Shown: in pieces, positions 16,681 through 37,916 of the stretch | Layout of the letters: each line of letters begins with the position of its first letter | Position numbering within the stretch: position 1 is the first letter of the stretch | Assembly (NCBI GenBank): GCA_023150875.1 | Contig: JAKLKC010000008.1 | Coordinates: 62,001-126,000, forward strand | Source: Myxococcota bacterium | Lineage (GTDB): Bacteria > Myxococcota_A > UBA796 > UBA9615 > JAKLKC01 | Direction: 5' to 3' | DNA length: 64,000 nt | Program-made: the position numbers and the translations under genes | The notes under the pieces: model-generated | What the model was told of the DNA's origin: nothing | What the model saw: the letters and a program-made list of their open reading frames with translations, nothing else | Database searches by the model: none

Positions 16681-17790
16681 CTACCGCCCCTCCTCGGCCT
16701 CCTGCCGCTCCGCCTCCTCGATGACGTGGGCCAGGGGGTTGGCGCCCACGGCGGCCTCCCACTCCATGGTCACCGTGCCCGGGCCCTCCAGGGAGGGGAT
16801 CTCGGTGGAGTCGATGGCGGGGCGGCTGCCGGAGTCCACGGGGGTGATCGCGGGGGCGCTGGGGAGGGAGTCCAGCCCCTTGCGCTTGCGCTGGGCCTTG
16901 CCGTGGCGGCCGCGGACCCGGCCCACGGGCTCGCCGGGATCCCCCGCCCAGCGGGTGCCCGCGGCCACGTGGGCGTAGGAGGGGACGTAGGTCCGGGGGT
17001 CCAGGGCGGCGCCGTCCTCGATCACCGCCCCCATGCCGATGTGGCAGCGGGGGCCGATGAGCACGTCGGCGCCGATCCGGGCGTCGGGGGCGATGTCCAC
17101 CAGCGCCCCCACCTTGGTCCGGGCGCCGATCCGCACTCCCGGGCCGACGTTGGTGTGGGCGCCGACGTTCGCGCCCTCCCCCACCTCGATGGGGGCCGCC
17201 ATCATCCGGTCCCCCACCGAGAGGTGGGCCGACAGGTAGGTGCCCTCCCCCAGGAAGGAGCCCCGCCCCATGGTCACCAGGCCCGGCGAGATCACCTTCG
17301 CCGCCGGCGAGATGTGGGTGGTCCAGTGCAGGCGCATCCCCATCGCCCGGAAGTAAAGGTAGCGGGTGACGGTGAGGAGCTGGACGTGCTGGCGCAGCGG
17401 CGGCACCAGGTAGGAGTCCAGCCCCCACCGGGCCAGGAACGCCGCGAACTCGCGGCCCTGGAATACCGGCTTGAGGCCCGGGGTCTCCCGGGGCAGCAGC
17501 GCCGCCGCCACGGCGATGGCGCCGATCACCCCCAGCAGGAAGAGGAGCCAGGCCACGGGCATGGCGAAGGCGAACAGGACCGGTCCCCCCACCCGCCACG
17601 CCTGGCTCAACAGCAGCGCGGGCGCCACCCCGGCGACCCCGTACACCCAGATCGCCCCCAAGACCCAAGCCACGTCGAACAGGAGGATCTGCCCCTCGGT
17701 GCCGCTCCGCTGGGCGGAGGGGCGCGGTGCGGTGCGCTCGTCACCGCCTTGCCGCGTCGCCTCGCTCCTCGACTCGCCGGGATCCAGCAC
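16681..17790 (-). CDS. Membrane-anchored LbH (hexapeptide-repeat) protein, last gene of the ketosynthase operon
   Basis: About 369 residues. Two predicted transmembrane helices at roughly 36-60 and 69-97 are followed from about 155 to 290 by a left-handed beta-helix of imperfect hexapeptides (VGEGANVGAHTNVGPGVRIG). The tail is basic and low in complexity. This fold is typical of acyl- and acetyltransferases, and the architecture resembles C-terminal parts of NRPS-like Pls/PosA proteins (inference). The GTG at 17790 has an ACGGAG ribosome site 6 bases upstream; the longer frame would overlap the ACP gene. As the 3' gene of the ketosynthase operon it may transfer the finished acyl chain at the membrane. 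The catalytic residues are not clear. Confidence 0.65.
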   Translation of the reverse strand: MLDPGESRSEATRQGGDERTAPRPSAQRSGTEGQILLFDVAWVLGAIWVYGVAGVAPALLLSQAWRVGGPVLFAFAMPVAWLLFLLGVIGAIAVAAALLPRETPGLKPVFQGREFAAFLARWGLDSYLVPPLRQHVQLLTVTRYLYFRAMGMRLHWTTHISPAAKVISPGLVTMGRGSFLGEGTYLSAHLSVGDRMMAAPIEVGEGANVGAHTNVGPGVRIGARTKVGALVDIAPDARIGADVLIGPRCHIGMGAVIEDGAALDPRTYVPSYAHVAAGTRWAGDPGEPVGRVRGRHGKAQRKRKGLDSLPSAPAITPVDSGSRPAIDSTEIPSLEGPGTVTMEWEAAVGANPLAHVIEEAERQEAEEGR

Positions 17791-17837
17791 CCGAGGCTCC
17801 GTTTCCGTTCCACGCCCCCGGGGACGGGGGGGGGAGG

Positions 17838-18251
17838 TCAGGCCGTCACCGCACTCTTCTCGCCCACCAGGCGCACGCACAGGTTGAAGAACGTCTCGAC
17901 GGTGAAGAGGTAGGGGATCTCCCGCACCGTCATGCCTTCCTTGAACCTCTCGTCGGGGATCTCCGGCATCGCCTCCCGCAGCCGGGCCAGGCCCACGGCG
18001 GTCAGGACGCCGTCCACCTCGAAGGGCTCATCCCCCGCGCTCTCCGCGGCCCGGGCCTGGATGTCCCCCCGGGGGATCTTGATGCCCAGGTCCTGCTCCA
18101 GGCGGAACGCGATGTCGAGGAAGTCCAGGGACTCCGCACCGAGGTCCTCGATGAGGGTGTCCTCCAGGTGGACCTCCTCCTCGTCGAGGCCCAGCGCCTC
18201 GGCGATGTTCTGCACCACGACCTCGTAGATCTTCCGGCGCTCGGCGTCCAT
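17838..18251 (-). CDS. Acyl carrier protein with C-terminal extension
   Basis: A 137-residue acyl carrier protein. The phosphopantetheine attachment site is the Ser of LIEDLGAESLDFLDIAF, in the normal ACP position. Helices 1 and 2 are standard and acidic. Typical ACPs are 75-90 residues; here about 55 extra residues follow (GVLTAVGLARLREAMPEI, then IPYLFTVETFF), suggesting a docking or dimerisation element. The ATG at 18251 has an AGAGGA ribosome site. Its position downstream of four ketosynthase genes makes it the likely chain carrier of the cluster. An extra phosphopantetheinyl transferase gene is not present nearby. Confidence 0.92.
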   Translation of the reverse strand: MDAERRKIYEVVVQNIAEALGLDEEEVHLEDTLIEDLGAESLDFLDIAFRLEQDLGIKIPRGDIQARAAESAGDEPFEVDGVLTAVGLARLREAMPEIPDERFKEGMTVREIPYLFTVETFFNLCVRLVGEKSAVTA

Positions 18252-18295
18252 CACGGCAGTCCTCTTTGGATTCAATGGGTTATGCCCCCCGAAGG

Positions 18296-20305
18296 TCAGC
18301 GTTCCCCCGCGATGCGCCCGATCACCCGCACGGCGTCGGCGACCGCCTCGAAGATGGAGCGGGGACGGTCGGCGTCGCCGATCGCCACCACCGTACCCGA
18401 GAATCCCTCCAGCGAGGCGGGATCGGGCCCCACCGGCTCCCGCCCGATGGCGGCCACCAGGGCGGTGGCCCCCATGACGCGCGCCTCGCCGTCCCGGCCC
18501 CACTGGACCACCACGTCCGCCCCCTCCACCCGGACGTCCCGCACCTGGGTCAGGATCCGCACGCCGCCATCGCGCAGCGCGCGCTCCATGTGGAAGCGCA
18601 CCGGGGGGTTCAGGTCCGTGGCCACCTTGCGCTTCTTCTCCAGCACCGTCACCGAGCAGCCCAGGGCCGCCAGGTGATGGGCCACCTCGCAGCCCCCTGC
18701 CCCTCCCCCCAGCACCACCGGCCGCGGCCCCACCGCGTCGGGCTCGCGCATCGCCCGGTCGGCGTCCACCACCGGCAGCGCCCCGGTGTCCAGGGAGGCG
18801 GGCAGGCGAGGCCGGGAGCCCGTGGCCAGCACCAGCGCGTCGGGCGAGACCTCGGCCAGCAGCGCCGCGTCCAGGGCCCGGGCGGCGAGGACCCGCACGG
18901 GGCGGGCGCGGACCTCGGCCACCAGGTAGTCCCGGTACCAGCCGACGGGCTCCTTGTGGGGGGGCAGGGCCGCGATGTCGAGCTGCCCTCCGAGCTCCCC
19001 CCGCGCCTCGGCGAGGGTCACGTCGAAGCCCGCGTCCGCCGCCGCCGCCGCCGCGCTCAGCCCCGCGGGGCCGGCCCCGGCGACGAGGATCCGCCGCCCT
19101 CGTCCGGGGAGGGCCGAGGAGGCCGCCCACCTCCGCCGCCCCTCGGCGCCGACCTCGGGGTTGACGGTGCACTCCAGGTTCCCTCCGGAGATCGAGGCGA
19201 TGCAGCGGTTGCAGGCGAGGCAGGGGCGAATGGGCAGGCCGAGCCGTGCCTTCCGGGGCAGGTGGGGATCGGCGATGGTCGCCCTCCCCATGGCCACCAG
19301 GTCGGCGTGCCCCCTCGCCACCGCCGCCGCCGCCGCCTCGGGGCGATGGATCCGCCCCACGGCGATCACCGGCACCCCCAGCGCCCCCCGCAGCCGCGCC
19401 GCCAGGGGCTCGAACACTCCCTCGGGCAGGAAGTACGAGGGCATGTTCCAGAACATCGACTCGTAGTTGCAGGCGGAGACGTGGAGCAGGTCGACCCCCG
19501 CCTCCACCAGGTGCCGCCCGATCTCCACCGCCTCCCCGGGCTCGATCCCCCCCTCCACCTTCTCGTCGGCGGAGATCCGGGCGATCACCATGCGCTCCCC
19601 GCCCAGGGCCTCCCGCACCGCCCGCACGACCTCCGCGGGGAAGCGGGCGCGACCGGCGACGGAGCCGCCGTACTCGTCCTCCCGCACGTTGGAGTAGGGG
19701 GAGAGGAAGCCGCACAGCAGGTAGCCGTGGGCCATGTGCAGCTCGACCCCGTCGGCCCCGGCCTCCGCCGCCCGCCGGGCCGCGGCGCCGAACGCGGCGA
19801 CGAGATCGGCGATCTCCGCCCGGGACAGGGCCCGGGGGATCTCCTTCATCACCGGGCAGGGGATGGCCGAGGGGGCGACGGGCTGGCCGCCGGCGTAGTC
19901 GCTCAGGGTCTGGCGCCCCGCGTGGCTGAGCTGGACGACGATCCGCCCCCCCGCGGCGTGGACGGCGTCCACCAGCTCCCGGAAGCCCCCGGTGAGCCCG
20001 TCGTGGTCCAGGCGGAGCATCCGGTCCGTGACCATGCCCGAGGGGTGGACCGAGGTGTTCTCGACGGTGACGTAGCCGGCCTCGCCCCGGGCCCTCTCGA
20101 CGTAGTAGTCGACGAGCCGGGGGGTGACCCCGCCGTCCCGGCCGGCGAGGTTGGTCTCCATGGCCGGGACCACCACCCGGTTGGGCAGCGTCACCCCCCG
20201 CACCGTCAGCGGTCGGAACAGCGCCTCGAGGTCCTGCCCCCGGGCGTAGGTCCGGGGAGCCAGCACGGCCTCCGGGACCGCCACCGTCGGGGGGGCAAGG
20301 CTCAA
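18296..20305 (-). CDS. Old-Yellow-Enzyme/2,4-dienoyl-CoA-reductase-type flavo-iron-sulfur oxidoreductase
   Basis: A 669-residue protein with FadH-like architecture. The FMN TIM barrel (residues about 20-360) contains HMAHGYLLCGFLSPYSN and the usual DEYGGS. A [4Fe-4S] cysteine cluster follows (CLACNRC and then ECTVNPE). The C-terminal part has FAD and NAD(P)H Rossmann motifs (VAGAGPAGLSAA and LGGGAGGCEVAHHL). The TTG at 20305 overlaps the KS1 stop (TTGA) and has GGAGG 7 bases upstream, so it is preferred over an in-frame GTG at 20284 without a ribosome site. In this operon it probably reduces an enoyl or dienoyl thioester, acting as the enoyl-reductase step or a tailoring step; the substrate is inferred. 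Confidence 0.88.
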   Translation of the reverse strand: MSLAPPTVAVPEAVLAPRTYARGQDLEALFRPLTVRGVTLPNRVVVPAMETNLAGRDGGVTPRLVDYYVERARGEAGYVTVENTSVHPSGMVTDRMLRLDHDGLTGGFRELVDAVHAAGGRIVVQLSHAGRQTLSDYAGGQPVAPSAIPCPVMKEIPRALSRAEIADLVAAFGAAARRAAEAGADGVELHMAHGYLLCGFLSPYSNVREDEYGGSVAGRARFPAEVVRAVREALGGERMVIARISADEKVEGGIEPGEAVEIGRHLVEAGVDLLHVSACNYESMFWNMPSYFLPEGVFEPLAARLRGALGVPVIAVGRIHRPEAAAAAVARGHADLVAMGRATIADPHLPRKARLGLPIRPCLACNRCIASISGGNLECTVNPEVGAEGRRRWAASSALPGRGRRILVAGAGPAGLSAAAAAADAGFDVTLAEARGELGGQLDIAALPPHKEPVGWYRDYLVAEVRARPVRVLAARALDAALLAEVSPDALVLATGSRPRLPASLDTGALPVVDADRAMREPDAVGPRPVVLGGGAGGCEVAHHLAALGCSVTVLEKKRKVATDLNPPVRFHMERALRDGGVRILTQVRDVRVEGADVVVQWGRDGEARVMGATALVAAIGREPVGPDPASLEGFSGTVVAIGDADRPRSIFEAVADAVRVIGRIAGER

Positions 20306-21504
20306 GGGGCGGCCTCCAGGAGGGTGACGGCGATCTCCCCGGTGTCCGAGGCCGCCGCCACCAGGGCGCGGCGGTGGCGACCCTCCGCCAGGACCGGGAG
20401 GGCCAGGGCCAGGGCGAAGGCTCCCCCGGCGGCGCCGCCGTCCCCCAGCACCCCCGCGGGGGCGAGGAGGTCCACCCCGGGGTGCAGCAGCTCGGGCAGG
20501 ACGCCGAAGACCGCGGCCTCGGCGGGATCCCCGGACGCGGAGACCAGCGCGACGCCCACGTCGTCCCCCCGCAGGCCCGCCTCGTCCAGGGCCCGGCCCA
20601 CCGCCCGGGCCAGGGCCTCCCGCCCCAGGTCGACGGGCAGGGGCTCCCCCAGGCCGGCGGGGGCGCAGGCGTCGGCACAGGCGAGCACCCTGGCCCTCAC
20701 CCTCGCCCCCCTCCCCCGGGCTCGCTCCTCGGGCTCCACCACTACGAAGGCCGCCCCCTCGCCGGGCACGATCCCGAGGGCGCCGGGCCCGAGGGGGCCA
20801 CACTCCCCCCACGGGGGCTCGGCGGCGGGGTGGAGGCGCCCCAGCAGGTGCAGGCCGACGAGCTTCTCCATGTAGAGCTGGGTGTCGTGGCCCCCGGCCA
20901 GGAGGGCGTCGGCGCCGCCGTCCCGCAGCGCCCACTGGGCCTCGGCGAGGGCCTGGATCCCCCCCGCCCTGCCGTTGCCGATGTTGTCGTTGGGGCCCCG
21001 CAGGCCGTAGCCCTGGGCCACCAGCGCCAGCACGTTGTTGGTCAGCCCCTTCACCAGCCACAGGGGGTTGATGGTGGGGACCCCCTCGCGGCCGAAGCGG
21101 ACCAGGTCCAGCCTCCCGTCGGCCTCGGCGTCCCGCAGCGCGGGAAGGAACTCGTTGTCCTCGTCCACCGTCAGGGCGGCGCCGGTGAACATGCCCCGGC
21201 GCAGGTCGGGCAGATCCCCCCAGACCGCCTGCTCGCCGCCGGCGTCCGCCACGGCGAGGCGTGCCGCGCCGACCCCGAAGCGCACGGGCCAGCTCATCAC
21301 CTTCAGCATCTTGCGGTGAAAGGCGTGGTCGCCGGGCTTGAACCCGGCCGCCACCTCGCCGCCGTAGGCGATGGGGGTCCACGGCTCGCGGGTGCGCTCC
21401 AGGGGGCGGATCCCCGTCTCGCCCCGGCGCCACCGCCCCCACACCTCCTCGGGGGAGAGGCCCAGGGCGGAGACCATCCCGGCTCCCGTGAGCACCGCCC
21501 TCAT
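20302..21504 (-). CDS. Beta-ketoacyl-synthase homologue lacking catalytic residues (KS1, CLF-like)
   Basis: A 400-residue thiolase-fold protein with KS landmarks (LTGAGMVSALG at the start, LLAGGHDTQ, PGEGAAFVVVE), but the active site is gone. By alignment to KS2 the nucleophile Cys is replaced by Arg179 (GNGRAGGIQAL), and both catalytic His motifs and the conserved Lys are missing. It cannot condense on its own. It resembles a chain-length-factor-type partner that would dimerise with an active KS (inference). ATGA overlap with KS2 upstream and TTGA overlap with the reductase downstream imply tight stoichiometry. Confidence 0.85.
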   Translation of the reverse strand: MRAVLTGAGMVSALGLSPEEVWGRWRRGETGIRPLERTREPWTPIAYGGEVAAGFKPGDHAFHRKMLKVMSWPVRFGVGAARLAVADAGGEQAVWGDLPDLRRGMFTGAALTVDEDNEFLPALRDAEADGRLDLVRFGREGVPTINPLWLVKGLTNNVLALVAQGYGLRGPNDNIGNGRAGGIQALAEAQWALRDGGADALLAGGHDTQLYMEKLVGLHLLGRLHPAAEPPWGECGPLGPGALGIVPGEGAAFVVVEPEERARGRGARVRARVLACADACAPAGLGEPLPVDLGREALARAVGRALDEAGLRGDDVGVALVSASGDPAEAAVFGVLPELLHPGVDLLAPAGVLGDGGAAGGAFALALALPVLAEGRHRRALVAAASDTGEIAVTLLEAAP

Positions 21505-22811
21505 GCCGGGCCCTCCCAGCGGCGGAACACCAGGGAGGCGTTCTGGCCGCCGAAGCCGAAGGAGTTGCTGACGGCGTACTCGAAGGACGCCGGCCGCCCC
21601 ACGAGGGGCACGTAGTCCAGGTCGCACTCGGGATCGGGATCGCGCAGGTTCAGGGTGGGGGGCAGCACCTGGTGGCGCAGGGCCTGGACCACCGCCACCC
21701 CCTCCACGGCCCCGGCGGCGGCGACGGCGTGGCCGATCATCGACTTGGTGCTGCTCACCGGCGGGGCCCTGCCGGGGCCGCCGAACACCGCGCGGATCGC
21801 CTCGGTCTCGTGGGCGTCGTTGAGGGGGGTGGCGGTGCCGTGGGCGTTGATGTAGCCCACCGCCTCGGGGGGGAGGCCCGCGTCCCGCAGCGCCGAGCGC
21901 ATCGCCCGGGCCGCGCCCGCCCCGTGGGGAGCCGGGGCGGTGACCCGGAAGGCGTCCAGGGAGGACCCGTACCCCACGATCTCCGCCAGGGGGCGAGCCC
22001 CCCGGGCGAGGGCCAGGTCCAGGGGCTCCAGCACGAACATCGCCGCCCCTTCGCCGATCACGAAGCCGTCCCGAGTGCGGTCGAAGGGGCGGGACACCGC
22101 CTCGGGGGGGCGATCGGTGGTGGTGGAGAGGGCGCCGAGCAGGGCGAAGGAGAGCACGCCGAACGGGTGGATCATGGACTCGAAGCCGCCGCAGACGGCG
22201 AGGTCGATCTCCCCCTCCCGCAGGTCGTGGAAGGCGTGCCCGATGGCCTGGGCGGCGGCGGCGCAGGCGCCGTGGTTGGTCAGGACCGGCCCCGCGGCCC
22301 CCGCCCTCCGGGCCACCAGGGCGGCGCAGAGATCGGTCATGTGCCGGTAAGCGAAGAGGCCGTCGTTCCGCGCCGCGGCCCTCCCCGCGGACCGGGGATC
22401 GTAGGCCCCCCGGCCGTCCAGGTGGGCCAGGAAGTCCTGCTCCGCCTCGGGGACCTCGGTGGAGGTCAGCCCCGTGGCGAGGTGGACCCCGCGCCGGGCC
22501 GGGGGGACGGACGAGGGAGCGGCGGCCCCGAAGGCGGAGGCGAGGGCGTCCCCGGCGGCGGCGAGCCCGAAGGCGGTCTTGCGGTCCAGCCCCCGCTCCA
22601 GGAAGGCGCCCAGCTCGCCGGGGAGGGCCGCCCCGGGGTCGAAGTCCCGCACCCGGGCGGCCACCTTCACCTCGAAGCCGGTGGTGTCGAAGGCGTCCAG
22701 GGCGCTCACCCCCGAACGGCCGGCGATCATGTCCCGGAACACCGCCTCGGGATCCCGCCCCAGGGGGCAGATCAGGCCCATGCCGGTGACGGCGACGCGG
22801 CGGGGGGTCAC
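21501..22811 (-). CDS. Beta-ketoacyl-ACP synthase, catalytically intact (KS2)
   Basis: A 436-residue FabF-type ketosynthase with a full catalytic set: Cys183 (NHGACAAAAQ), His324 (INAHGTATPLND), Lys356 and His361 (STKSMIGHAVAAAG). The C-terminal SNSFGFGGQNAS loop is canonical. It condenses acyl-ACP with malonyl-ACP. The GTG at 22811 overlaps the KS3 stop (GTGA). Flanked by two inactive homologues, it may form a KS/CLF-like heterodimer with either neighbour. Confidence 0.93.
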   Translation of the reverse strand: MTPRRVAVTGMGLICPLGRDPEAVFRDMIAGRSGVSALDAFDTTGFEVKVAARVRDFDPGAALPGELGAFLERGLDRKTAFGLAAAGDALASAFGAAAPSSVPPARRGVHLATGLTSTEVPEAEQDFLAHLDGRGAYDPRSAGRAAARNDGLFAYRHMTDLCAALVARRAGAAGPVLTNHGACAAAAQAIGHAFHDLREGEIDLAVCGGFESMIHPFGVLSFALLGALSTTTDRPPEAVSRPFDRTRDGFVIGEGAAMFVLEPLDLALARGARPLAEIVGYGSSLDAFRVTAPAPHGAGAARAMRSALRDAGLPPEAVGYINAHGTATPLNDAHETEAIRAVFGGPGRAPPVSSTKSMIGHAVAAAGAVEGVAVVQALRHQVLPPTLNLRDPDPECDLDYVPLVGRPASFEYAVSNSFGFGGQNASLVFRRWEGPA

Positions 22812-24043
22812 GGCGTGGCCTCCAGGCACACCGCCGCGGCGGCCCCCGAGGGATCCCCGGCCCACGCCAGGATCCGCGCCCCGCGGCCGGTGGAGAGGGC
22901 GACGGCCAGGCCCGCGTCCAGGGCCCCGGCGGCGCCGCCGCAGTGGCCGAGGCGGTGCTTCGTGAAGAGGCGTTCGGCCGAGGCCGGGAGTCCCAGGGCG
23001 CGGGCCGCCTCCTCCTCGGCGGCGTCCCCCCGGGGGGTGCCCCAGCCGTCGGCGACCCAGAGGTCCACGTCCCCGGGGTCCCAGCCGGCGCGGTGCAGGG
23101 CCCGTTCCGCGGCTCCGCCGTAGCCCTCGGGCCCCCCCGGAGCGCCGAAGTCCGCCGGTCCGTCTCCGGGGGCGGCGCCGCTCCCCCAGCCGGCGAGGCG
23201 GGCCAGGGCGCGGGCCCCCCGGGCCTCGGCGCGGGCGCGGCCCTCCAGCAGCAGGAAGGCGGCCCCCTCGCCGGGCACGGTGCCGTCCCGGCCCCGGTCG
23301 AAGGGACGGCAGGCGCCGGTGGAGGAGAGCAGGCCCCGGGTCCCCAGGTAGGACACGTCGAAGGGGTTGACCTGGGCGTCGGTGCCCCCGACGAGGGCGG
23401 CCTCGCAGGATCCCCGGAGAAGGGCCTTGGCCCCCTCCCCCACCGCGGCGAGGGCCGAGCCCCCCCACGGCCCCACCGACAGGTTCACCCCCCGGATCCC
23501 GTGGGTGATGGCGACGTGGGCCATCGCCATGTTGGGGAGCACCTTCAGGGCGTCGATGGGGTTCATGCGGTGGCGGCCGGACTCGAAGAGGCGCCGGAGG
23601 GACAGGGGCACCCGGCCCTCCCCCGGGGCGGGGGCGTCTCCCGCGGGGTCCTCGGCCCGGGAGCCGGCCATCATCCCGACGACGTCGTCCATCTCCGGGA
23701 CCTCGTAGCCGCAGGCGGCGAACAGGCCGCAGCCCTCCCCCTCGCCCGCCCCCACCGCGCCGGCCCCGGCCTGGGCGAGGGCGTCCCCGGCGGCGTGGAC
23801 GGCGAGGCGGGCGTTGCGGCTCATCAGCTTGATCGCCTTGCGATCCGCCAGGTGGCGGCGGGGCTCGAAGTCGGCGACCTCGGCGCCGTGGGTCCAGGGG
23901 AAGCCCGAGGCGTCGAAGGCGCGGATGGGGGCCACCGCCGAGCGCCCCTCCCTCCACCCGGCCAGGGTGGCCTCGCGCCCGGTGCCCAGGGGGGTGACGA
24001 GGCCGATCCCCGTCACCACCACGTCCGCCCGGGAGGGCCTCAC
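22808..24043 (-). CDS. Beta-ketoacyl-synthase homologue with altered active site (KS3, CLF-like)
   Basis: A 411-residue KS-fold protein. The nucleophilic Cys position is Gly194 (SVGPWGGSALAAVG), and the first catalytic His is Trp334 (ADGWGTPRGD). Lys362 and His367 of the second motif are kept (FTKHRLGHCGGAAG). PGEGAAFLLLE and VGGTDAQVNPF confirm the family. It cannot form an acyl-Cys intermediate. Like CLF proteins it may shape the chain cavity or decarboxylate malonyl-ACP (inference). GTGA overlaps link it to KS4 and KS2. Confidence 0.85.
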   Translation of the reverse strand: MRPSRADVVVTGIGLVTPLGTGREATLAGWREGRSAVAPIRAFDASGFPWTHGAEVADFEPRRHLADRKAIKLMSRNARLAVHAAGDALAQAGAGAVGAGEGEGCGLFAACGYEVPEMDDVVGMMAGSRAEDPAGDAPAPGEGRVPLSLRRLFESGRHRMNPIDALKVLPNMAMAHVAITHGIRGVNLSVGPWGGSALAAVGEGAKALLRGSCEAALVGGTDAQVNPFDVSYLGTRGLLSSTGACRPFDRGRDGTVPGEGAAFLLLEGRARAEARGARALARLAGWGSGAAPGDGPADFGAPGGPEGYGGAAERALHRAGWDPGDVDLWVADGWGTPRGDAAEEEAARALGLPASAERLFTKHRLGHCGGAAGALDAGLAVALSTGRGARILAWAGDPSGAAAAVCLEATP

Positions 24044-25311
24044 CGGTCCCACCGCGCCAGGGCGACGGTGGCGTTGGAGCCGCCGAAGCCCAGGGAGTTG
24101 CTGAGGGCGTAGCGGACCTCGGCCCGCCTCGCCGCGTGGGGGACGTAGTCGAGGTCGCAGCGGGGATCGGGCTTGTCGAGGTTCGCCGTGGGGGGGAGCA
24201 GGCCGTTCCGCAGGGCCAGGACGGTGAACGCCGCCTCCACCGCCCCCGCGGCGGCGACCAGGTGGCCGATCTGCCCCTTGTTCGAGGACACCGTCACCGC
24301 CCGGGCGTGCTCCCCCAGGGCGCGGTGGATCGCCAGGGTCTCCGACAGGTCGTTCATCACCGTGGAGGTGCCGTGGGCGTTGACGTAGCCCACCTCCGTC
24401 GCCGGGATCCCGGCGTCCTCCACGGCCCCCGCCATGGCCTCGAAGGCGCCGCCGCCGTCGGGGGGGGAGTCGGTGACGCGGTAGGCGTTGTTGGAGCTGC
24501 CGTAGCCCGCCAGCTCCGCCAGCACCCTCGCCCCCCGGGCCCGGGCGTGCTCCAGGCTCTCCACCACCAGGAAGCCCGCGCCCTCCCCCAGCACGAAGCC
24601 GTCCCGGTCGGCGTCGAAGGGGCGGCTGGCCCGCCGGGGATCGTCGTTGCGCTGGCTCAGGGCCCCCAGGAGGCTGAAGCCCATCACCATGAACGCCTCC
24701 ACCAGGGCGTCGCAGCCCCCGGCGATCACCACGTCGGCCTCGCCCCGCCGGACCAGGCGCAGGGCGATCCCCAGGGCCTGGGAGCCGCTGGTGCAGGCGG
24801 TGGAGGAGGTCCGGGAGGGCCCCCGGGCGCCGAACCTCCGGGCGATGGCCTGGGCGGGCACCGCCATCGCCAGGCGGGGGAACTCGTCCCTGCCGATCTC
24901 GGGGATCACCGGCAGCAGCGAGTCGGCGTGGCGGTGGCGGAAGTAGCGGTCGGCGACCTCCTCGAGCTGCTTGCGGGCGGCCTCGGCGCCTACGGAGACG
25001 CCGAGGCGGGAGGGGTCCGCGGGGGGCGAGGCGTCGAGGCCGGCGTCCCGCCACGCGGCGTCGGCGGCCACCAGGGCCATGCGGGTGCGGCGGTCGAAGC
25101 GGGCGAACTCCCCGGGGTCCATCCCCGGGGGGGCCTCCAGGGGGAAGTCCGCCTGGGCGGCGATCCCGGTGGCGAAGCCCGTGGCGTCGAAGCGGGTGAT
25201 GCGCCCCACGGCGATCTCCCCCGCGACCAGCCGGGCCCACGACGAGGCGAGGTCCGGCCCCAGGGGGGTGAAGGCCCCCATGCCGGTGACGACCGCCCGG
25301 GGAGGGGCCAT
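24040..25311 (-). CDS. Beta-ketoacyl-ACP synthase, catalytically intact (KS4)
   Basis: A 423-residue FabF-type enzyme with Cys173 (SSTACTSGSQALG), His313 (VNAHGTSTVMND), Lys345 and His350 (SSNKGQIGHLVAAAG), and a canonical SNSLGFGGSNA C-terminus. It is the first ketosynthase of the operon, right after the FabZ-like dehydratase, whose stop shares one base with its ATG (TGATG). It differs clearly from KS2 in the cap region (residues about 60-150), suggesting a different chain length or substrate. Confidence 0.93.
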   Translation of the reverse strand: MAPPRAVVTGMGAFTPLGPDLASSWARLVAGEIAVGRITRFDATGFATGIAAQADFPLEAPPGMDPGEFARFDRRTRMALVAADAAWRDAGLDASPPADPSRLGVSVGAEAARKQLEEVADRYFRHRHADSLLPVIPEIGRDEFPRLAMAVPAQAIARRFGARGPSRTSSTACTSGSQALGIALRLVRRGEADVVIAGGCDALVEAFMVMGFSLLGALSQRNDDPRRASRPFDADRDGFVLGEGAGFLVVESLEHARARGARVLAELAGYGSSNNAYRVTDSPPDGGGAFEAMAGAVEDAGIPATEVGYVNAHGTSTVMNDLSETLAIHRALGEHARAVTVSSNKGQIGHLVAAAGAVEAAFTVLALRNGLLPPTANLDKPDPRCDLDYVPHAARRAEVRYALSNSLGFGGSNATVALARWDR

Positions 25312-25817
25312 CAGGCGTCCCCGCCGGACGCCAGCCCGCCGTCCGGCATGGGCCAGCCCAGGCGGCGCAACTCCCGGCGCTCGAACTCCTCCAGCGAGAG
25401 GCCCGCCACCACGTCCGGCACCCCCTCGGGGTTGAACACGAAGACCAGGTCCATCTGGGCGCGGCGCTTGCCCCCGACCTCGATCCGCCCCTTCACCAGG
25501 GCGGACTCGGGGCGCAGGGAGTCCAGCTTCGCCACCAGGTCGATCCGCTCGCCGGGGCGGACGAAGGAGCGGAACTTGGTCTCCTTCACCATGGAGAGGA
25601 TCGGGAAGACCCACACCCCCGTCTGGCCGTACTGGGTGACCTCGATCAGCTTGCCGGCGAGCTGGGCGACCATCTCCACCAGCAGCACCCCCGGGACCAC
25701 CGGGAACCCCGGGAAGTGGTCCCCGAACAGGGGCAGGTCGGCGGAGAGCACGGTGTGCCCCCGGGCGGTGTCCCCGGGGAGGATCTCGTCGATGCGGTCC
25801 ACCAGCAGCCAGCGCAT
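25311..25817 (-). CDS. FabZ-like 3-hydroxyacyl-ACP dehydratase
   Basis: A 168-residue hot-dog-fold protein. The catalytic His34 (GDHFPGFPVVPG) and Glu48 (VEMVAQLAG) are spaced 14 residues apart as in FabZ. About 30 extra C-terminal residues follow the fold. It would dehydrate 3-hydroxyacyl-ACP to enoyl-ACP. No ketoreductase gene is present in the operon to supply that substrate, so a housekeeping FabG may serve, or the step is used differently. TGATG overlaps both neighbours. Confidence 0.9.
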   Translation of the reverse strand: MRWLLVDRIDEILPGDTARGHTVLSADLPLFGDHFPGFPVVPGVLLVEMVAQLAGKLIEVTQYGQTGVWVFPILSMVKETKFRSFVRPGERIDLVAKLDSLRPESALVKGRIEVGGKRRAQMDLVFVFNPEGVPDVVAGLSLEEFERRELRRLGWPMPDGGLASGGDA

Positions 25818-27106
25818 CAGGTCCTCGGCTCCTCGGCGGGGACCGCCTCGGGCGCTGAAGGGGTCGGCTCGGCGGGGCGGGGGTCCACCACCGTCGCGCC
25901 CCGAACCACCAGGGGCACCCCCGTGGGCAGGCCCTCGGGGAGCTTGTTGACCCACCCCTCCTCGGCGCCGGTCACGAAGTAGCCGTTGGGCACCTCGCGC
26001 CCCGGCGAGACGAACAGGCGGGTGCCCAGGGTCGCCCCGTGCCCCACCGCCGAGCCCAGGAAGTTCGTGCCGGAGTCCACCAGGCGCCCCTGGTGCCGGA
26101 CCTTCACGTCCCCGAAGAAGTTGATGTCCACGAGGCCGGCGAGGCTGGTGGTGGTCGCCCCCCTCCCGATCACCGAGACCTGGGTGAAGGGCATTCCCAC
26201 GAACGCGCCCGGGTAGACCACCGAGCAGAACACGAAGGCGCCCCGGGTCAGCCACGAGCCCGGCCCCATCACCGACAGGGCGATCTGGGAGTGGGCGGCC
26301 ACGGCGACCCCGTCCCCCAGCACGGCGCCCTGGACCACGGAGTAGGGCCCGATGTGGACCCCGTCGCCGATCCACGACGCCTCCACGATGGCGGTGCGGT
26401 GGATCTTGCACTTCTTCCCGATCCGGGAGAACACGCGGTTCCGGTTGCGGAAGGGGAAGGTGAGCAGGAACCAGAGCCCCCGCAGGACGAGGCTGAGCTT
26501 GCGCTCCTCGAACGCCTCCTGGAAGGTCCCGCCGATGGCGTCGAGGTTCACCCGCAGCAGGTGGATCCAGTGCCGGACGTGCATGGCGCGTCGGGTGGTC
26601 CCGGCGGCGAGGGTGCGGCGGTCCTTGTCGGCCCCGGCGCGGAAGCCCGCGGGGACCGGGACCTCGGTGACCTTCTCGCGGGGGTCCACCAGGCGGACGG
26701 GGAGCTCGCCGCGGCGGGCGAGGTCCGCCGCCGACGCCAGGTGCCACAGCTCGTAGGCCATGCCCTCGGCCTCCCCGTCCCGGGCGGGGACGAGGTCCTG
26801 CAAGGGGTGGGAGTTGGCGAGGTACTGGGAGGCCCGGATCCCCGCCCGCGCCGACGCGCCCGCCGCTGCCTTCAGGAAGTCCCGGAGGAGCTGACGGGTC
26901 ACGTAGAGGTCGTCCGGGAAGGCGAGGCAGGGGAACTGGTCCACGCGATCCCACGAGTCCACGCGCACCGGCTCGAAGCCCACCGCCCGCAGGGCGTCGT
27001 CCTGGTGACCGCACAGGGGGCGGTTGAGGACGAGCACGTCCTGGACGGCATCTCCGAACGGGGAGAGTCGAGATCCGGTGGCGACGATGTAGGCGCGGAG
27101 GGCCAC
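25817..27106 (-). CDS. LbH-domain protein with N-terminal nucleotidyltransferase-like segment, first gene of the operon
   Basis: About 429 residues. The N-terminus (YIVATGSRLSPFGDAVQ, then LVLNRPL) faintly resembles a sugar-nucleotidyltransferase fold without an intact pyrophosphorylase signature. A helical region follows (HWIHLLRVNLDAIGGTFQEA), then from about 230 a left-handed beta-helix of hexapeptides (GDGVHIGPYSVVQGAVLGDG). The GTG at 27106 was chosen for its GGAAG ribosome site 9 bases upstream; longer frames lack one. Together with the LbH protein at the operon's other end it gives the cluster two candidate transferases. Function unknown. Confidence 0.6.
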   Translation of the reverse strand: MALRAYIVATGSRLSPFGDAVQDVLVLNRPLCGHQDDALRAVGFEPVRVDSWDRVDQFPCLAFPDDLYVTRQLLRDFLKAAAGASARAGIRASQYLANSHPLQDLVPARDGEAEGMAYELWHLASAADLARRGELPVRLVDPREKVTEVPVPAGFRAGADKDRRTLAAGTTRRAMHVRHWIHLLRVNLDAIGGTFQEAFEERKLSLVLRGLWFLLTFPFRNRNRVFSRIGKKCKIHRTAIVEASWIGDGVHIGPYSVVQGAVLGDGVAVAAHSQIALSVMGPGSWLTRGAFVFCSVVYPGAFVGMPFTQVSVIGRGATTTSLAGLVDINFFGDVKVRHQGRLVDSGTNFLGSAVGHGATLGTRLFVSPGREVPNGYFVTGAEEGWVNKLPEGLPTGVPLVVRGATVVDPRPAEPTPSAPEAVPAEEPRT

Positions 27107-27206
27107 GGGCAAACGCTTCCGGCACCCCGCCGGCTGGGGGCGGGGCCTCTCCCCCGGTGTAGAAGAGGCCGGAATGGTATCACGCCGCGCCCCGGGACGG
27201 AACGTG

Positions 27207-27222
27207 GATTGACTCGTCAATC
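27207..27222. promoter_or_regulatory. Inverted repeat between the ketosynthase operon and the divergent membrane-protein gene
   Basis: GATTGAC and GTCAATC, perfect 7-bp arms with a 2-base centre, sit about 100 bases from both divergent starts (27106 minus, 27322 plus). The size and position fit a dimeric repressor or activator site. TTGAC within the arms could also be a -35 element on either strand, but no convincing -10 follows at 17 bases. Confidence 0.5.
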
Positions 27223-27321
27223 GGCATGTCCCCCGAACGCTGGCGGAACTGGGACCGCCGCGTTGACGGCGTGGCCCGCTCCGGTACGCTGGCCCCCCTG
27301 TCCCGAGAGGAACGGAGCCCC

Positions 27322-29196
27322 ATGCCCGCCGCCGCGCCCCCGCCCTCCCCGGCGACCACCCGCGACACCTCGCCCGGGTCCGCCGCGCCGAAGCCCCGGA
27401 AGCCCACCCTGGGCGAGAGCTGGCGTGCCCGGATCCTGACCCCCTTCCCGGGGGCGCGGCGGGAGGCGGCGAAGGTGGCGCTGATGCTCACCCTGCCCGC
27501 CCTCGGCTTCGGCCTGTTCGCCGACGACTACCTGCACGTCGCCGCGTTCGAGGGGGCCCTGCCCCGGGGCGTGCCGATCTGGGACCTGTTCGACTTCGCC
27601 CCGGGGGATCCGGCGGTGCTGGAGCCCACCGCCATCGACCGGGGGCCCTTCCCGTGGTGGACCCTGCCGGACCTGAAGCTCTCGTTCTTCCGCCCCCTTT
27701 CGAGCCTGCTGGCGGCGGCGGACCACGCCGTCTTCGGCCGCTTCCCCCCCGCGTGGCACGCCCACTCGCTGCTCTGGTTCGTGGGCGTGGTCCTGGCCTG
27801 GGGGACGCTGCTGCGGCGGGTGATGCCGACGGCGGTGGGGGCGCTGGCGCTGATGCTGTTCGCCATCGACGACTCCCACTGGATGCCCGCGGCGTGGTGG
27901 GCGAACCGGAACGCGGTGATCAGCGCCCTGTTCGGGGTGCTGGCCCTGCACGCCCACCTGCGCTGGCGCGAGGACGGCTGGCGGCCGGGGCTGCCCCTGT
28001 CGGCCCTGGCCTGGGTGCCGGCGCTGCTCGCCGGGGAGGCGGGCCTGTCGGCGATGGCCTACGTGCTGGCCTACGAGGTCGTCGCCGGGCCGGGCCGGCC
28101 CCTGGCGAGGGCGGCGGCGGTCCTGCCCACGGCGCTCCTGGGCGCCGGCTACCTGGTCGCCTACAAGGCCCTGGGCTACGGCGCCCGCCTCTCGGGCAGC
28201 TACATCGACCCCATCTCGGAGCCCGGCGCCTACCTCGCCGCCCTGGCGGTGCGGCTGCCGGTGTTCGTGGAGGGGCTGTACGGGGGGATCCCCGCGGACC
28301 TGTGGCTGTTCGCGCCGTTCATGCGCCCGGCGCTGTTCGTCCTGGGCCTGGTGTTCGGGTGGATGATCTGGCGGCTCCTGCGCTGGGCCCTGCCGGAGCT
28401 GAGCCCCGAGGAGCGCCGGGCGGTGACCTGGCTGGGCCTGGGCTCGACCCTGTCGCTGCTGCCCCTGGCGGCGACCTTCCCCACCAGCCGGCTCCTCCTG
28501 ATCCCATCGTTCGGGGGGATGGCGGTGGTGGCGGCGGTCCTGCACCGCTGGTTCGCCTCGTGGGAGGCGCGGGCCCCGGAGCCGGGGGAGGGCCTGCGGC
28601 GCTTCCTGTGCGGTGGCATGGTGCGGATCCACACGGTCTACGCCCCCTTCCTGCTGTGGGGGCTGATCGTGGCGGTGGGGGCGGCGACGGCGACGGGGAC
28701 CGAGAAGTACCTGGGCGCCGACTTCGACGACCAGGGGATCGGCGAGAGGCGGGTGGCCCTGGTGGCCTCCCCGGACCCCATGGCGGCCCTCTACCCGGTG
28801 ATGGTCCGCCAGCTCAACGGCCACGCCGCGCCCAAGGCGTGGTGGCCCCTCAGCTTCGTGCCCCGGGACCACCGCCTGAGCCGCGTGGACGAGCGGACCT
28901 TCGACCTGGAGGTCCTGGGGGGCCAGATGATGGAGACCGAGTTCGAGGTCCTCTTCCGCCACCCGGACCACCCCCTGGCGGTTGGGGATCGCTTCGAGCT
29001 GGACGGCATGGGGGCCGAGGTCCTGCGGATCCGGGAGCACGGCCCCGACCTCGTGCGCTTCCGCTTCGACCGGCCGCTGGAGGACCCCTCCCTCCTCTTC
29101 CTCACCTGGCAGGAGGGGGAGCTGCGGGAGGTGGAGATGCCGAAGGTGGGGGAGAGCGTGGTGATCGGCCACGGGCAGATCACCTTCCTGGGGTGA
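27322..29196 (+). CDS. Polytopic membrane protein, GT-C glycosyltransferase-like
   Basis: A 624-residue protein with a disordered Pro/Ala-rich N-terminus and about 9-11 predicted transmembrane helices, then a soluble C-terminal domain of about 140 residues. The first outside loop carries Asp68-Asp69 (GLFADDYLHV), the position and character of the acidic motif of GT-C lipid-linked sugar transferases; WWANRNAVISALFG is another conserved-looking loop. The ATG at 27322 has a GGAG ribosome site; a start at 27226 would place an implausible tail upstream. It is divergent from the ketosynthase operon and shares its upstream region. GT-C assignment is an inference from topology and the DD motif. Confidence 0.55.
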   Translation: MPAAAPPPSPATTRDTSPGSAAPKPRKPTLGESWRARILTPFPGARREAAKVALMLTLPALGFGLFADDYLHVAAFEGALPRGVPIWDLFDFAPGDPAVLEPTAIDRGPFPWWTLPDLKLSFFRPLSSLLAAADHAVFGRFPPAWHAHSLLWFVGVVLAWGTLLRRVMPTAVGALALMLFAIDDSHWMPAAWWANRNAVISALFGVLALHAHLRWREDGWRPGLPLSALAWVPALLAGEAGLSAMAYVLAYEVVAGPGRPLARAAAVLPTALLGAGYLVAYKALGYGARLSGSYIDPISEPGAYLAALAVRLPVFVEGLYGGIPADLWLFAPFMRPALFVLGLVFGWMIWRLLRWALPELSPEERRAVTWLGLGSTLSLLPLAATFPTSRLLLIPSFGGMAVVAAVLHRWFASWEARAPEPGEGLRRFLCGGMVRIHTVYAPFLLWGLIVAVGAATATGTEKYLGADFDDQGIGERRVALVASPDPMAALYPVMVRQLNGHAAPKAWWPLSFVPRDHRLSRVDERTFDLEVLGGQMMETEFEVLFRHPDHPLAVGDRFELDGMGAEVLRIREHGPDLVRFRFDRPLEDPSLLFLTWQEGELREVEMPKVGESVVIGHGQITFLG

Positions 29197-29300
29197 GGAG
29201 GTGCGGGCGGACCGGGATCCGTCCTCGTCCGGAGCGCGCTGCGCGGCCCCGATTTCCGTGCCCATGCCCGTGCACGTGCCCGTCCCCGATCATCTGTGTT

Positions 29301-29340
29301 CTCTGCGTCTCTGCGTCTCTGCGTCTCTGCGTCTCTGCGT
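29301..29340. repeat. Tandem repeat, five perfect copies of CTCTGCGT
   Basis: Forty bases are exactly five CTCTGCGT units. The last units plus TCA (29309-29343) match the reverse complement of 29496-29530 at about 28 of 35 positions. Repeats of this kind occur in many unrelated environmental genomes (from memory), where they yield spurious Arg/Glu/Thr-rich translations. Confidence 0.9.
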
Positions 29341-29495
29341 TCATTCCCATCCGTCCCGTCCCCGCCCCCACGCGTCGTCCTCGCCTCCCTCCCCTTCCCC
29401 AGGGGGCGTCCTCCGCGGAAGGAGGACATCGACGCCGGGTCGCTCGTCATGGCGCAGGGCGAGAACGGGTGGCGGTGGGGATAGCGGGGCTGGGG

Positions 29496-29530
29496 TCAAC
29501 GCGGAGGCGCGGAGGCACAGAGGCGCAGAG
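29496..29530. repeat. Inverted, diverged counterpart of the CTCTGCGT repeat
   Basis: On the minus strand this segment reads as degenerate CTCTGCGC/CTCCGCGC units and is the imperfect complement of 29309-29343. The two arms could fold into a long stem with a loop of about 150 bases. Confidence 0.7.
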
Positions 29531-29739
29531 CGGGGGTGGGGCGTGAACGAGAACGAGATCGGTAGGATGGTGGTGGATGCGGCGAGCAAGCTCTCACGTA
29601 CCTCACCGGTCCGGGACCAGGCCCCGGCCCCGCTCGCCGTTCGCGCGGCTGCGCACGCCGGACGGCGAGCGGGGCCCCCCTGTGTCCCGGTCACCCCGAA
29701 GGGCGGGGAACGACGGCCGAGGGACCCAGGGTCCGAGGG

Positions 29740-31527
29740 TCAAGGGATGGACCGCGAGAGGCGAAGGCCGAGGGTGTCGCCCCCGCCGGAGGGCTCCCCA
29801 AAGCCCCGATTGGCCACGCGCGTCCCCGCCGGCCCATCGTCCCACGCACCTCCGCGGCCGACGCGGTCGGCGCCGACTCCGGGTCCAGCGGGGTCGGTGA
29901 CGACGCCCGTCGGGTAGGCGCCGTACCGGTCCCAGCACCACTCCCACACGCTGCCCGTCATGTCGTACAGGCCCCAAGGGTTCGGGAGCTTCTGCCGCAC
30001 CGGCGCCAGCCCCAAGGCGCCGCCCCGGCCGGGGAACACCTCCACCGTCACCCAGCCGTTCCTCTCGCACATCTCCGCCGTCGCCACCTGGGCGAACCCG
30101 GTCACTTGTGCCAAATCGTCGGTGCCCGCCCACCGCCACGGCGTGCCCGCCCGCGCCGCGTACTCCCACTCCGCTTCGGTGGGTAGCCGATACCCGTCCC
30201 GCGAGCGGTCCCACGTGACTTCCTCGCCCTCGATCGCGTAGGCCGGCGCCAGCCCGTGCAGCTCCGACAGGCGGTTGGCGAAACGGACGGCGTCCCACCA
30301 GCTCAAGGAGTGGATCGGGAGGTCGTCCCCCACCCCCCAATCCCGGCCTGGATCCCGCTCCTCTCCGCCCAGGATCTCCCGCCGGGTCTCGACGGGGTTC
30401 TCCCCGGTCACCGCCCTCCACAGCCCCTGCGTCACCGGCGCCTCCCCCAGCCAGTACGCCCGGGTCAGGGTGACCCGGTGCTGGTCCTCATCCTCGTCGC
30501 GCCCCGGCTCGGTGGGCGGGGAGCCCATCAGGAATGAGCCCGGCTCGATGCGGACCATCGGGTACGGTGGGTGTCGCGGGCGCGGCCTCCGGGGTTCCCA
30601 CGCCCCCGCCGCCTCGAAGGGCTCCAGCGCGTCGGACAGGGCGCGACAAGAGGGGTAGCGGTCCTCCGGCCGGCGAGCCAGCCCCCGGGCCATCGCCCCC
30701 ACCACATGGGCCGGGGGCACGCGGCCGCCGGCGAGCCGCCCCAGCCCGGGCGCGTCCTCCCGGGTCTTCCTCGTCAGGTAGGCGACGTAGCTCCCGAGGT
30801 CCTGGAAGCCCCCCGGGGGGAGCGGGAACGGGAACCGCCCCGTCAGGAGCATGTGGAGCACCACCGCCGCCCCGTACACGTCGGCACGGGCGTCCAGGGC
30901 ATCGCCGCCGAGCACCTCCGGCGCCATGTACGGCGGGGTGCCGGGGGGAAGGCCCGGGGTCAGGGAGGGATCGTCGAGGACCCGCGAGATCCCGAAGTCC
31001 ACCACCTTCACCTGGTCGGGGGCGCCGCCGTGGTCCCGGGACAGGATGAACACGTTCTCCGGCTTGATGTCCCGGTGGAGGACCTTCTTCCGATGCGCCG
31101 CCTCCAGCCCCTCCAGCACCTGGCGGACGATCCGGACGGCCCGATCCGGGGGGATCGGCCACTCCTCCTGGATCACGCCGGAGAGGGGCGCGCCGTCCAG
31201 GAACTCCATCACCATGAAGGGGCCGTAGCCTCGGCTCTCCCCCACGTCGGTCACCTGGACGACCCGAGCGTGATGGATGAGGGCCGCCGCCCGGGCCTCG
31301 GTGAGGAACCTCCTCACGTTGTCGGGCCTGCCCAGCACGTGGGGCAGCAACAGCTTCAGCGCCATCCGCCGGCCCCCCAGCCGGGAGTCCTTCACCTCCC
31401 CGACCCAGCCGAAACCACCCTGCCCGAGCCCGCGGACCACCTCGTAGCGATCCCCCACCCTCGTCCCGGCGGGAGGCGGGAACGGCGCGGGGTCCACGGT
31501 ACCCGGGGGCACGAGGGTGTCGTTCAT
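29740..31527 (-). CDS. Ser/Thr protein kinase fused to a formylglycine-generating-enzyme-like domain
   Basis: About 595 residues. The N-terminal Hanks kinase (residues about 28-300) is intact: glycine loop GLGQGGFGWV, Lys58, HRDIKPENV with Asp153, DFG with Asp177, and PPYMAPEV. The C-terminal domain (about 322-595) belongs to the FGE-sulfatase/SUMF1 fold: MVRIEPGSFLMGSP, GYRLPTEAEWEYAARAG, NPWGLYDMTGSVWEWCWD and GRGGAWDDG. The usual paired cysteines of true FGE are not obvious, so the domain may be a ligand or protein-binding module. No transmembrane helix is seen, so it is probably cytoplasmic. The start is uncertain between ATG 31527 and TTG 31557; neither has an ideal ribosome site. It lies upstream of the TA and RiPP-like loci. 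Confidence 0.88.
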   Translation of the reverse strand: MNDTLVPPGTVDPAPFPPPAGTRVGDRYEVVRGLGQGGFGWVGEVKDSRLGGRRMALKLLLPHVLGRPDNVRRFLTEARAAALIHHARVVQVTDVGESRGYGPFMVMEFLDGAPLSGVIQEEWPIPPDRAVRIVRQVLEGLEAAHRKKVLHRDIKPENVFILSRDHGGAPDQVKVVDFGISRVLDDPSLTPGLPPGTPPYMAPEVLGGDALDARADVYGAAVVLHMLLTGRFPFPLPPGGFQDLGSYVAYLTRKTREDAPGLGRLAGGRVPPAHVVGAMARGLARRPEDRYPSCRALSDALEPFEAAGAWEPRRPRPRHPPYPMVRIEPGSFLMGSPPTEPGRDEDEDQHRVTLTRAYWLGEAPVTQGLWRAVTGENPVETRREILGGEERDPGRDWGVGDDLPIHSLSWWDAVRFANRLSELHGLAPAYAIEGEEVTWDRSRDGYRLPTEAEWEYAARAGTPWRWAGTDDLAQVTGFAQVATAEMCERNGWVTVEVFPGRGGALGLAPVRQKLPNPWGLYDMTGSVWEWCWDRYGAYPTGVVTDPAGPGVGADRVGRGGAWDDGPAGTRVANRGFGEPSGGGDTLGLRLSRSIP

Positions 31528-31726: not shown

Positions 31727-31732
31727 ATGGTC

Positions 31733-31993
31733 ATGAAAACCGTCGGTATCGCGGAACTCAAGGCCCATCTCAGCGAACACCTCCAGGCCGTCCGGCGGGG
31801 CGAGACCCTCACCGTGCTCGACCGGCGGGAGCCCATAGCCCGCATCGTGCCCCTCCACGAGACGGCCGGTGGCCTCGTGGTCCGGCCCCCTCGGGGTGCG
31901 CTCCACGACATCCCCCTCCCGGGGCCGACGCGGAGCGGCCGGGACGCGGACGTGGTGGACGACCTGATGGCGGAGCGGCGGGAGCGGCTTTGA
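31733..31993 (+). CDS. Phd/YefM-type antitoxin
   Basis: An 86-residue antitoxin. The N-terminus (MKTVGIAELKAHLSEHLQAV) is the classic Phd/YefM DNA-binding segment, followed by GETLTVLDRREPIARIVPL. The C-terminus is charged and probably binds the toxin. It precedes a PIN-domain toxin with a TTGA overlap. Such antitoxins usually repress their own promoter. ATG 31727 (two residues longer) is an alternative start. Confidence 0.9.
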   Translation: MKTVGIAELKAHLSEHLQAVRRGETLTVLDRREPIARIVPLHETAGGLVVRPPRGALHDIPLPGPTRSGRDADVVDDLMAERRERL

Positions 31994-32403
31994 TCGCCTA
32001 CGTCGACTCGTCGGTCCTGCTGCGGGTGGTCCTGGGGCAACCGGACCGACTCCCCTCCTGGGGCGAGATCGAGTTGGCGGTGACGAGCGGCGTCACCGAA
32101 GTGGAGTGCCTACGAACCCTGGATCGGCGCTGCCGCCAGGGCCTCCTGGCGGAGGAGGAGGTCCCGGAGCGGCGGGGGCTGGTGATCCGTCTGCTCGAGA
32201 GGATGGAACGGGTCGAAGTCGCGCCCGCCATCCTCCGGCGTGCCGCCGACCCGTTCCCCGTGGCGCTCGGCACGCTGGACGCCATCCACCTGGCGACCGC
32301 GTCCCTGTGGGGGACCGCCCGAGGCGAGATGCCGGTCATGGCGACCCACGACGTCCAGCTCGCGGCGGCCGCCCGATCCCTCGGGATCGTCACTGTCGGC
32401 TGA
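31990..32403 (+). CDS. PIN-domain toxin (VapC-like)
   Basis: A 137-residue PIN ribonuclease-type toxin. Acidic active-site residues are visible: Asp of YVDSSVLL, Glu of TEVECLR, Asp of TLDAIHLATA and Asp of ATHDVQL. The TTG start overlaps the antitoxin stop. Such toxins cut RNA and are neutralised by the antitoxin. It converges with the CCG-type LanC gene. Confidence 0.9.
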   Translation: MIAYVDSSVLLRVVLGQPDRLPSWGEIELAVTSGVTEVECLRTLDRRCRQGLLAEEEVPERRGLVIRLLERMERVEVAPAILRRAADPFPVALGTLDAIHLATASLWGTARGEMPVMATHDVQLAAAARSLGIVTVG

Positions 32404-37681: not shown

Positions 37682-37792
37682 GGCGGCAGAGGGGTGGAGG
37701 AGGCTCGCGGATCCCGGCCGTGCTGGACCAGGCCGGAACGCCGAAGGCTTGCCACGCGGGCGGACCTTCGGACCGAGAGGGTGACCCTAACA

Positions 37793-37855
37793 GGACGATC
37801 CTCGAGCTGGATCCGCACCGCCGGAATCGAAGACCGGGGGGTGGCGCTCCTGGCA
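37793..37855. repeat. 63-bp direct repeat, copy 2
   Basis: Near-identical to 36809-36871. It ends 5 bases before the candidate promoter of VapBC pair B. The two copies bracket pair A, so recombination between them would delete that pair. Confidence 0.9.
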
Positions 37856-37859
37856 ACCG

Positions 37860-37888
37860 TTGCGGCGGGCGGGCGACGCAACTAGAAT
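37860..37888 (+). promoter_or_regulatory. Candidate promoter of VapBC pair B
   Basis: TTGCGG (37860-37865), a 17-base spacer and TAGAAT (37883-37888): the best sigma-70-like match seen in the window. Transcription would start near 37895, downstream of an in-frame ATG at 37887, which supports the GTG start at 37917. Confidence 0.6.
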
Positions 37889-37916
37889 GGAACCGTATTG
37901 CAACCCGGAGCATGAC

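Follow-up and report, generated by a model that had tools for sequence, protein, structure and literature searches.

A palindrome between a multi-ketosynthase operon and a divergent membrane-protein gene of a Myxococcota bacterium: a probable operator of a FadR-like TetR-family regulator of acyl-CoA catabolism

The closest described counterparts of the regulatory system discussed here are the FadR proteins of Bacillus. An unlinked TetR-family protein of the host genome, referred to here as TetR1, has its closest solved structures among the Bacillus FadRs (PDB 1vi0, 3whb/3whc and 5gp9/5gpa, by sequence), and the two systems share acyl-CoA degradation targets, predicted ones in the case of TetR1, and a dyad with a TGA/TCA core. 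The half-site of Bacillus subtilis FadR is TGAATGA and that of the TetR1 type is GATTGAC. The best NCBIfam match of TetR1 is the Bacillus FadR model (NF053878), but its score of 84.5 bits falls far below the curated cut-off of 200, so that TetR1 is not a FadR of the Bacillus type by this measure and its ligand is uncertain; a second regulator in the same genome, TetR2, is much closer to FadR. Two other TetR-type systems can be likened to TetR1. The Thermus thermophilus FadR regulates fatty acid degradation from a palindromic site, although that site, TTRNACYNRGTNYAA, is a different 15-bp pseudopalindrome (PMC5597230), and the Sulfolobus acidocaldarius repressor FadRSa controls lipase and beta-oxidation genes through a 16-bp dyad motif, whereas it has four genomic sites and represses one 30-kb cluster (PMC6449355). 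A precedent for lineage-specific shifts of fatty acid regulons is provided by the PsrA, FadP and FabR regulons of Proteobacteria: that study describes a shift of the PsrA regulon to biosynthesis genes in Ralstonia and Burkholderia and the gain of the polyunsaturated-fatty-acid synthase operon by FabR in six Shewanella species, although the regulators and the lineages differ from ours (PMC5343134).

The window, i.e. the whole 64,000-nucleotide stretch of DNA analysed here, contains the palindrome GATTGACTCGTCAATC (GATTGAC-TC-GTCAATC), whose arms are complementary at 7 of 7 positions around a 2-bp TC gap, as had been pointed out in an earlier note. It lies between a multi-ketosynthase (KS) operon and a divergent gene for a GT-C-like membrane protein (Table 1). 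Counted from GTG 27106 on the minus strand and ATG 27322 on the plus strand, it is located 100 bp from the start of the KS operon and 99 bp from that of the GT-C gene, which bears out the equidistance claimed before. Gene starts were taken from a purpose-written gene caller and from reading of the start regions; for the GT-C gene, the caller chose the in-frame ATG 27226, 3 bp from the palindrome, and we prefer ATG 27322 because of the ribosome site GAGGAACGGAG that precedes it (read by eye). The GT-C-like protein had no Pfam or NCBIfam match at E 0.001. The host encodes a second GT-C homologue (G000:C109:67201-68703, 37% identity), which runs off the contig end.

Table 1. Features of the palindrome region, the two FadR-type regulators and the other places in the host genome that match the palindrome with up to two mismatches
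Feature	Location	Strand	Description
Operator GATTGAC-TC-GTCAATC	27207..27222	.	predicted TetR1 (FadR-like) repressor site
GT-C-like membrane protein	27322..29196	+	624 aa from ATG 27322, divergent
Candidate GT-C promoter TTGACG-16-TACGCT	27263..27290	+	by eye; 40 bp beyond operator
Candidate extended -10 of KS operon, TGATACCAT	27174..27182	-	by eye
LbH1, first operon gene	25817..27106	-	left-handed beta-helix (hexapeptide), 429 aa, PF00132; GTG start
FabA/FabZ-like dehydratase	25311..25817	-	168 aa, PF07977
KSa	24040..25311	-	ketosynthase with Cys-His-His motifs
KSb	22808..24043	-	ketosynthase-like; lacks active-site Cys and first His, last GH kept (alignment)
KSc	21501..22811	-	ketosynthase with Cys-His-His motifs
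KSd	20302..21504	-	ketosynthase-like; lacks Cys and both His motifs (alignment)
Old-yellow-enzyme (OYE)/2,4-dienoyl-CoA-reductase-like	18296..20284	-	662 aa, PF00724 + PF07992
Acyl carrier protein	17838..18254	-	138 aa, PF00550
LbH2, second hexapeptide protein	16681..17790	-	369 aa, possible operon end
tetR1	G000:C103:64905-65528		TetR-family gene, unlinked to window
TetR2	G000:C103:121876-122532 = L221:2077-2733		FadR paralogue, near-canonical
Host site	L005		before acyl-CoA dehydrogenase
Host site	L007		before enoyl-CoA hydratase, then BKACE enzyme
Host site	L008		before TetR-family regulator
Host site	L009		before MFE2-like SDR/MaoC/SCP2 protein
Host site	L010 (C93)		response regulator neighbourhood; poor site, 9.5 bits
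Host site	L011		before thiolase
Host site	L012		before BadF/2-hydroxyacyl-CoA-dehydratase-activase-like protein
Host site	L013		before carboxyl transferase

The four ketosynthase-type genes of the operon look like two ketosynthase/chain-length-factor pairs (20302-25311), since KSa and KSc keep their motifs and KSb and KSd lack the active-site Cys. The core FabA-KSa-KSb-KSc-KSd-OYE is also found in the same-order genome G001, and a FabA-KSa-KSb end is found at a contig end of G004. Variants of the FabA-multi-KS operon are present in other classes of the phylum (L217-L220), where they carry further genes resembling, by eye, an acyltransferase and FabG. We considered a local regulator, but no transcription-regulator gene was seen by eye in 16681-31527, and the unlinked tetR1 has the same site. 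A Ser/Thr-kinase-like gene is located at 29740-31527, and small genes at 31727-32403 and 37274-38587 of the window resemble, by eye, antitoxin/PIN-domain toxin modules.

Judged merely as a 7-bp repeat, the palindrome is unremarkable, as perfect 7-bp inverted repeats number 16 in the window at a 2-bp gap and 209 when gaps of 0-12 are allowed. None of the other 15 at the 2-bp gap has four or more A/T in each arm or falls outside called genes. The exact sequence goes far beyond what chance would yield. None of 100 shuffles contained a perfect match to it at any gap of 0-12, and with up to three mismatches the pattern has a single match in the window, compared with a shuffle mean of 0.51. Scored with a matrix derived from 20 sites in other genomes, the window site reaches 27.9 bits; the runner-up in the window has 5.4, and the highest score in 20 Mb of simulated order-1 sequence was 20.9. 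These 20 sites had been retrieved with the window palindrome as bait, so that the matrix is not independent in sequence and the independent part of the evidence is the genes beside the sites.

One of those genes is tetR1 itself. Its product carries the TetR_N helix-turn-helix domain (PF00440, 58.9 bits against a cut-off of 24). Homologues with 47-53% identity are encoded in four same-order genomes (G001, G003, G005 and G006) and a fifth, G004, has a contig-end fragment (72% identity over 53 residues); in the rest of the 58 genomes searched, the best matches had no more than 38% identity, stretches of fewer than 90 residues aside. The palindrome is present upstream of tetR1, with no more than one mismatch, in all six of these genomes, i.e. 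the host and the five others. A pattern-free comparison of the 150 bp before tetR1 in the six genomes singled out the same site as the best conserved of 135 16-mers (summed mismatches 11, compared with a median of 28). A dimer-size palindrome conserved before the regulator's own gene is what is expected of a TetR-family operator, and the suggestion that the repeat is of dimer size and an operator finds support here and in the recurrence of the site before acyl-CoA genes. For tetR1-like genes in public genomes, we used the best 80 loci among 431 relatives and dropped two of these loci for short upstream sequence. Among these 78 of the best 80, sequences with up to one mismatch to GAYTGACNNGTCARTC occurred in 9 upstream regions (0 for the reversed pattern) and with up to two mismatches in 11 (3 for the reversed pattern), the site being absent in most of the 78. 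Four of the 11 are those of G001, G003, G005 and G006 and seven are new, including one from a Desulfarculaceae genome.

In the 6.92-Mb host genome, the palindrome was found at 9 places with up to two mismatches and at 84 with up to three, compared with 0 and 6, respectively, for a reversed control. Eight of the 9 are listed in Table 1 and the ninth is the window site itself. The six same-order genomes scanned had 49 places with up to two mismatches, compared with 10 for the reversed control, 7 of which fall in G002; this genome has two places, neither of them of the core type defined below, and its closest relative of TetR1 has 29% identity. No genome of the host's own family was among those compared. 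In the class as a whole, the palindrome occurs 9 times without mismatch in TetR1 genomes (in five of the six, G003 having none) and not once in the 65 other genomes, 52 of which were searched for TetR1; with up to one mismatch, the 71 class genomes contained 18 matches in the six TetR1 genomes and 25 in the 65 others.

We defined, after the sites had been seen, a core GAYTGA-N4-TCARTC, which is present at 27 of all 58 places (9 + 49) in the seven scanned genomes. Besides the window site, the core sites comprise six upstream of tetR1 and 20 upstream of acyl-CoA metabolism genes, two of the 20 lying before one and the same gene in L107. Their midpoints are in all 27 cases outside called genes, with the sites of L013 and L060 overlapping a gene end by 6-9 bp. 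The acyl-CoA metabolism genes code for acyl-CoA dehydrogenases, thiolases, enoyl-CoA hydratases/BKACE enzymes, carboxyltransferases and MFE2-like proteins, with one SCP2 and one dehydratase-activase-like protein represented singly. At several core sites, there is in addition a divergently transcribed gene for which a link to CoA is not evident. In its distance from the start, 100 bp, the window site exceeds 23 of the 26 others. Of the 31 non-core places, 15 are inside called genes and two (L011 and L102) precede acyl-CoA genes. Three places were left out of the core, namely the hybrid site GATTGAACAGTCATTC before the thiolase gene (L011), a FadE-like site in G005 (L102) and the response regulator place (L010), and GAATGA-type sites were set apart as those of TetR2. 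Given that 20 of the 26 core sites outside the window are followed by acyl-CoA genes, the TetR1 sites predict a FadR-type regulon of acyl-CoA degradation. At the level of sequence comparison, the site, its recurrence and its conserved link to tetR1 and acyl-CoA genes are shown; literature searches returned no paper on a GATTGAC-type TetR operator among the matches listed.

The second regulator scores 188.8 bits with the FadR model (cut-off 200). Genes of the electron transfer flavoprotein (ETF) come after tetR2 and the palindrome GAATGACGGTTCATTC, of the GAATGA-N4-TCATTC type, is upstream of it. Sites of the form GACTGA-N4-TCATTC are found before the gene of an ETF-ubiquinone oxidoreductase and before an SCP2/CoA-transferase pair; one more is the second site of the MFE2-like gene. 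Position 3 of the arm is A in at least one arm of the TetR2-type sites, a type defined by one autoregulatory and three related sites, whereas it is T in both arms of the window site and T or C in tetR1's own sites. The recognition-helix regions of TetR1 and TetR2 differ as well (AYGLVYHYF against ADGTIYLYF). Two FadR-type repressors that differ in half-site seem to operate in the host genome. At the MFE2-like gene the two types of site occur together, 78 bp apart (L009:4871-4886 and L009:4949-4964), which suggests joint control by both proteins.

The situation is different at the loci homologous to the two flanks of the window site, where genes of 29-38% identity were taken as homologues. The operator is absent at the KS operons of G001 and G004, both TetR1 genomes, and at four phylum-level KS operons (G240, G156, G296 and G217, the last with 121 bp of upstream sequence only), so that selection at the window locus finds no support from these six. 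No palindromes with up to three mismatches were found at 19 loci of LbH1 homologues, and 19 loci of GT-C homologues had no strong site near the gene start. Two matches with two mismatches at GT-C loci were rejected: that in L100 (13.7 bits) is downstream of the gene, and that in L089, the G003 homologue, is weak. Within the flanking sequence analysed at these loci, no GT-C homologue adjoins a KS-operon gene. The earlier note had proposed that one regulator functionally links the KS operon with the GT-C gene, and had named lack of conservation in related clusters as the observation that would speak against it. As far as the cluster is concerned, that is what we found, and the link itself finds no support: the probable regulator is encoded elsewhere in the genome and has numerous predicted targets, the site is missing from the homologous KS operons, and no GT-C homologue carries a strong one. 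The motif, on the other hand, is conserved elsewhere as an operator.

We consider it probable that the palindrome is the operator of TetR1 and that the KS operon is a lineage-specific member of an acyl-CoA-catabolism regulon; that 27207-27222 is a real operator with a nameable protein is very probable from the comparisons above. A palindrome arisen by chance, or a relic without function, would fit its lack of conservation at homologous KS or GT-C loci and the 16 perfect gap-2 repeats of the window, but it is hardly credible given that the exact sequence is absent from the 65 other class genomes, that the site lies outside called genes and that nothing in 20 simulated Mb scored as high as its 27.9 bits with the other-genome matrix. 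Binding by another regulator, such as the FadR paralogue TetR2, which nearly reaches the FadR cut-off, precedes ETF genes, has a palindrome of its own and has a predicted site next to that of TetR1 at the MFE2-like gene, appears improbable: at position 3, one or both arms of the TetR2-type sites have A (GAATGA), both arms of the window site have T, and the recognition-helix regions of the two proteins differ.

Which of the flanking genes TetR1 would control is less clear. Relative to the start site that follows from the hand-read -10 of the KS operon, the operator would lie between about -40 and -55 (approximately -47), a position compatible with either repression or activation; a -35 box within the palindrome was discarded for either flank, as no suitable -10 was seen by eye some 17 bp on. 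The consensus promoter scan reported neither the KS -10 nor the GT-C promoter candidate. Geometry does not decide, and metabolic logic favours the KS operon, which we modestly prefer as the only target; control of both flanks is the less likely arrangement, and it is unlikely that the operator serves the GT-C gene alone, in which case this gene, but not the KS operon, would be induced along with acyl-CoA catabolism. Exclusive control of the GT-C gene would agree with a site 99 bp from ATG 27322, or 3 bp from the in-frame ATG 27226, and with the weak palindrome TGCTGACACGTCAGTC that precedes a possible GTG start of the G003 homologue (L089) by a few bases. That palindrome, however, reaches 9.7 bits where the window site has 31.4, the homologues of G005 and G006, both TetR1 genomes, have none, ATG 27322 has the better ribosome site and, by eye, a plausible promoter of its own beyond the operator, and a tie of the GT-C protein to CoA metabolism is not evident. 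TetR1 might also activate the KS operon while repressing the degradation genes, as the operator immediately precedes the hand-read -35 region; at several other targets, by contrast, the site appears by eye to be at or downstream of a -10-like sequence. E. coli FadR, a GntR protein unrelated to TetR, activates unsaturated fatty acid synthesis and represses degradation. We regard activation as rather unlikely, since the promoter was read by eye and is unsupported by the consensus scan, and most TetR proteins repress.

In the mechanism that we favour, with TetR1 acting as a repressor and the KS operon as the main target of the window site, a TetR1 dimer would bind GATTGAC-N2-GTCAATC at its own gene and before acyl-CoA degradation genes and, by analogy with FadR, would let go on binding an acyl-CoA, so that its targets would switch on together during the breakdown of fatty or branched acids. 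In the host lineage, the site may have been gained before the operon for a FabA-like dehydratase, two KS/CLF-like pairs, a dienoyl-reductase-like enzyme and an acyl carrier protein, which would place that operon under a degradative acyl-CoA signal. As the other TetR1 sites precede tetR1 and genes of fat breakdown, a lipid-building set appears here under a fat-breakdown switch. That a repressor of acyl-CoA degradation distinct from canonical FadR captured a type-II KS/CLF operon in one lineage is an attractive possibility that we advance tentatively. If true, synthesis of a special lipid or polyene would be switched by the acyl-CoA signal of fatty acid breakdown, e.g. for recycling of acyl units, in a case of a degradative fatty acid regulon extending to a biosynthetic operon. 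The analysis turns an anonymous palindrome into a testable regulon, with a named predicted repressor gene, a consensus and, across six related genomes, another 26 core sites, and offers a first clue to when this phylum-recurrent ketosynthase operon is expressed in the host.

A perfect palindrome of the form GACTGAC-N2-GTCAGTC is also present in the host at L012:5011-5026, before a 1156-aa BadF/DUF2229 dehydratase-activase-like gene, and another TetR gene (L012:5943-6542) is located ∼ 0.9 kb from it.
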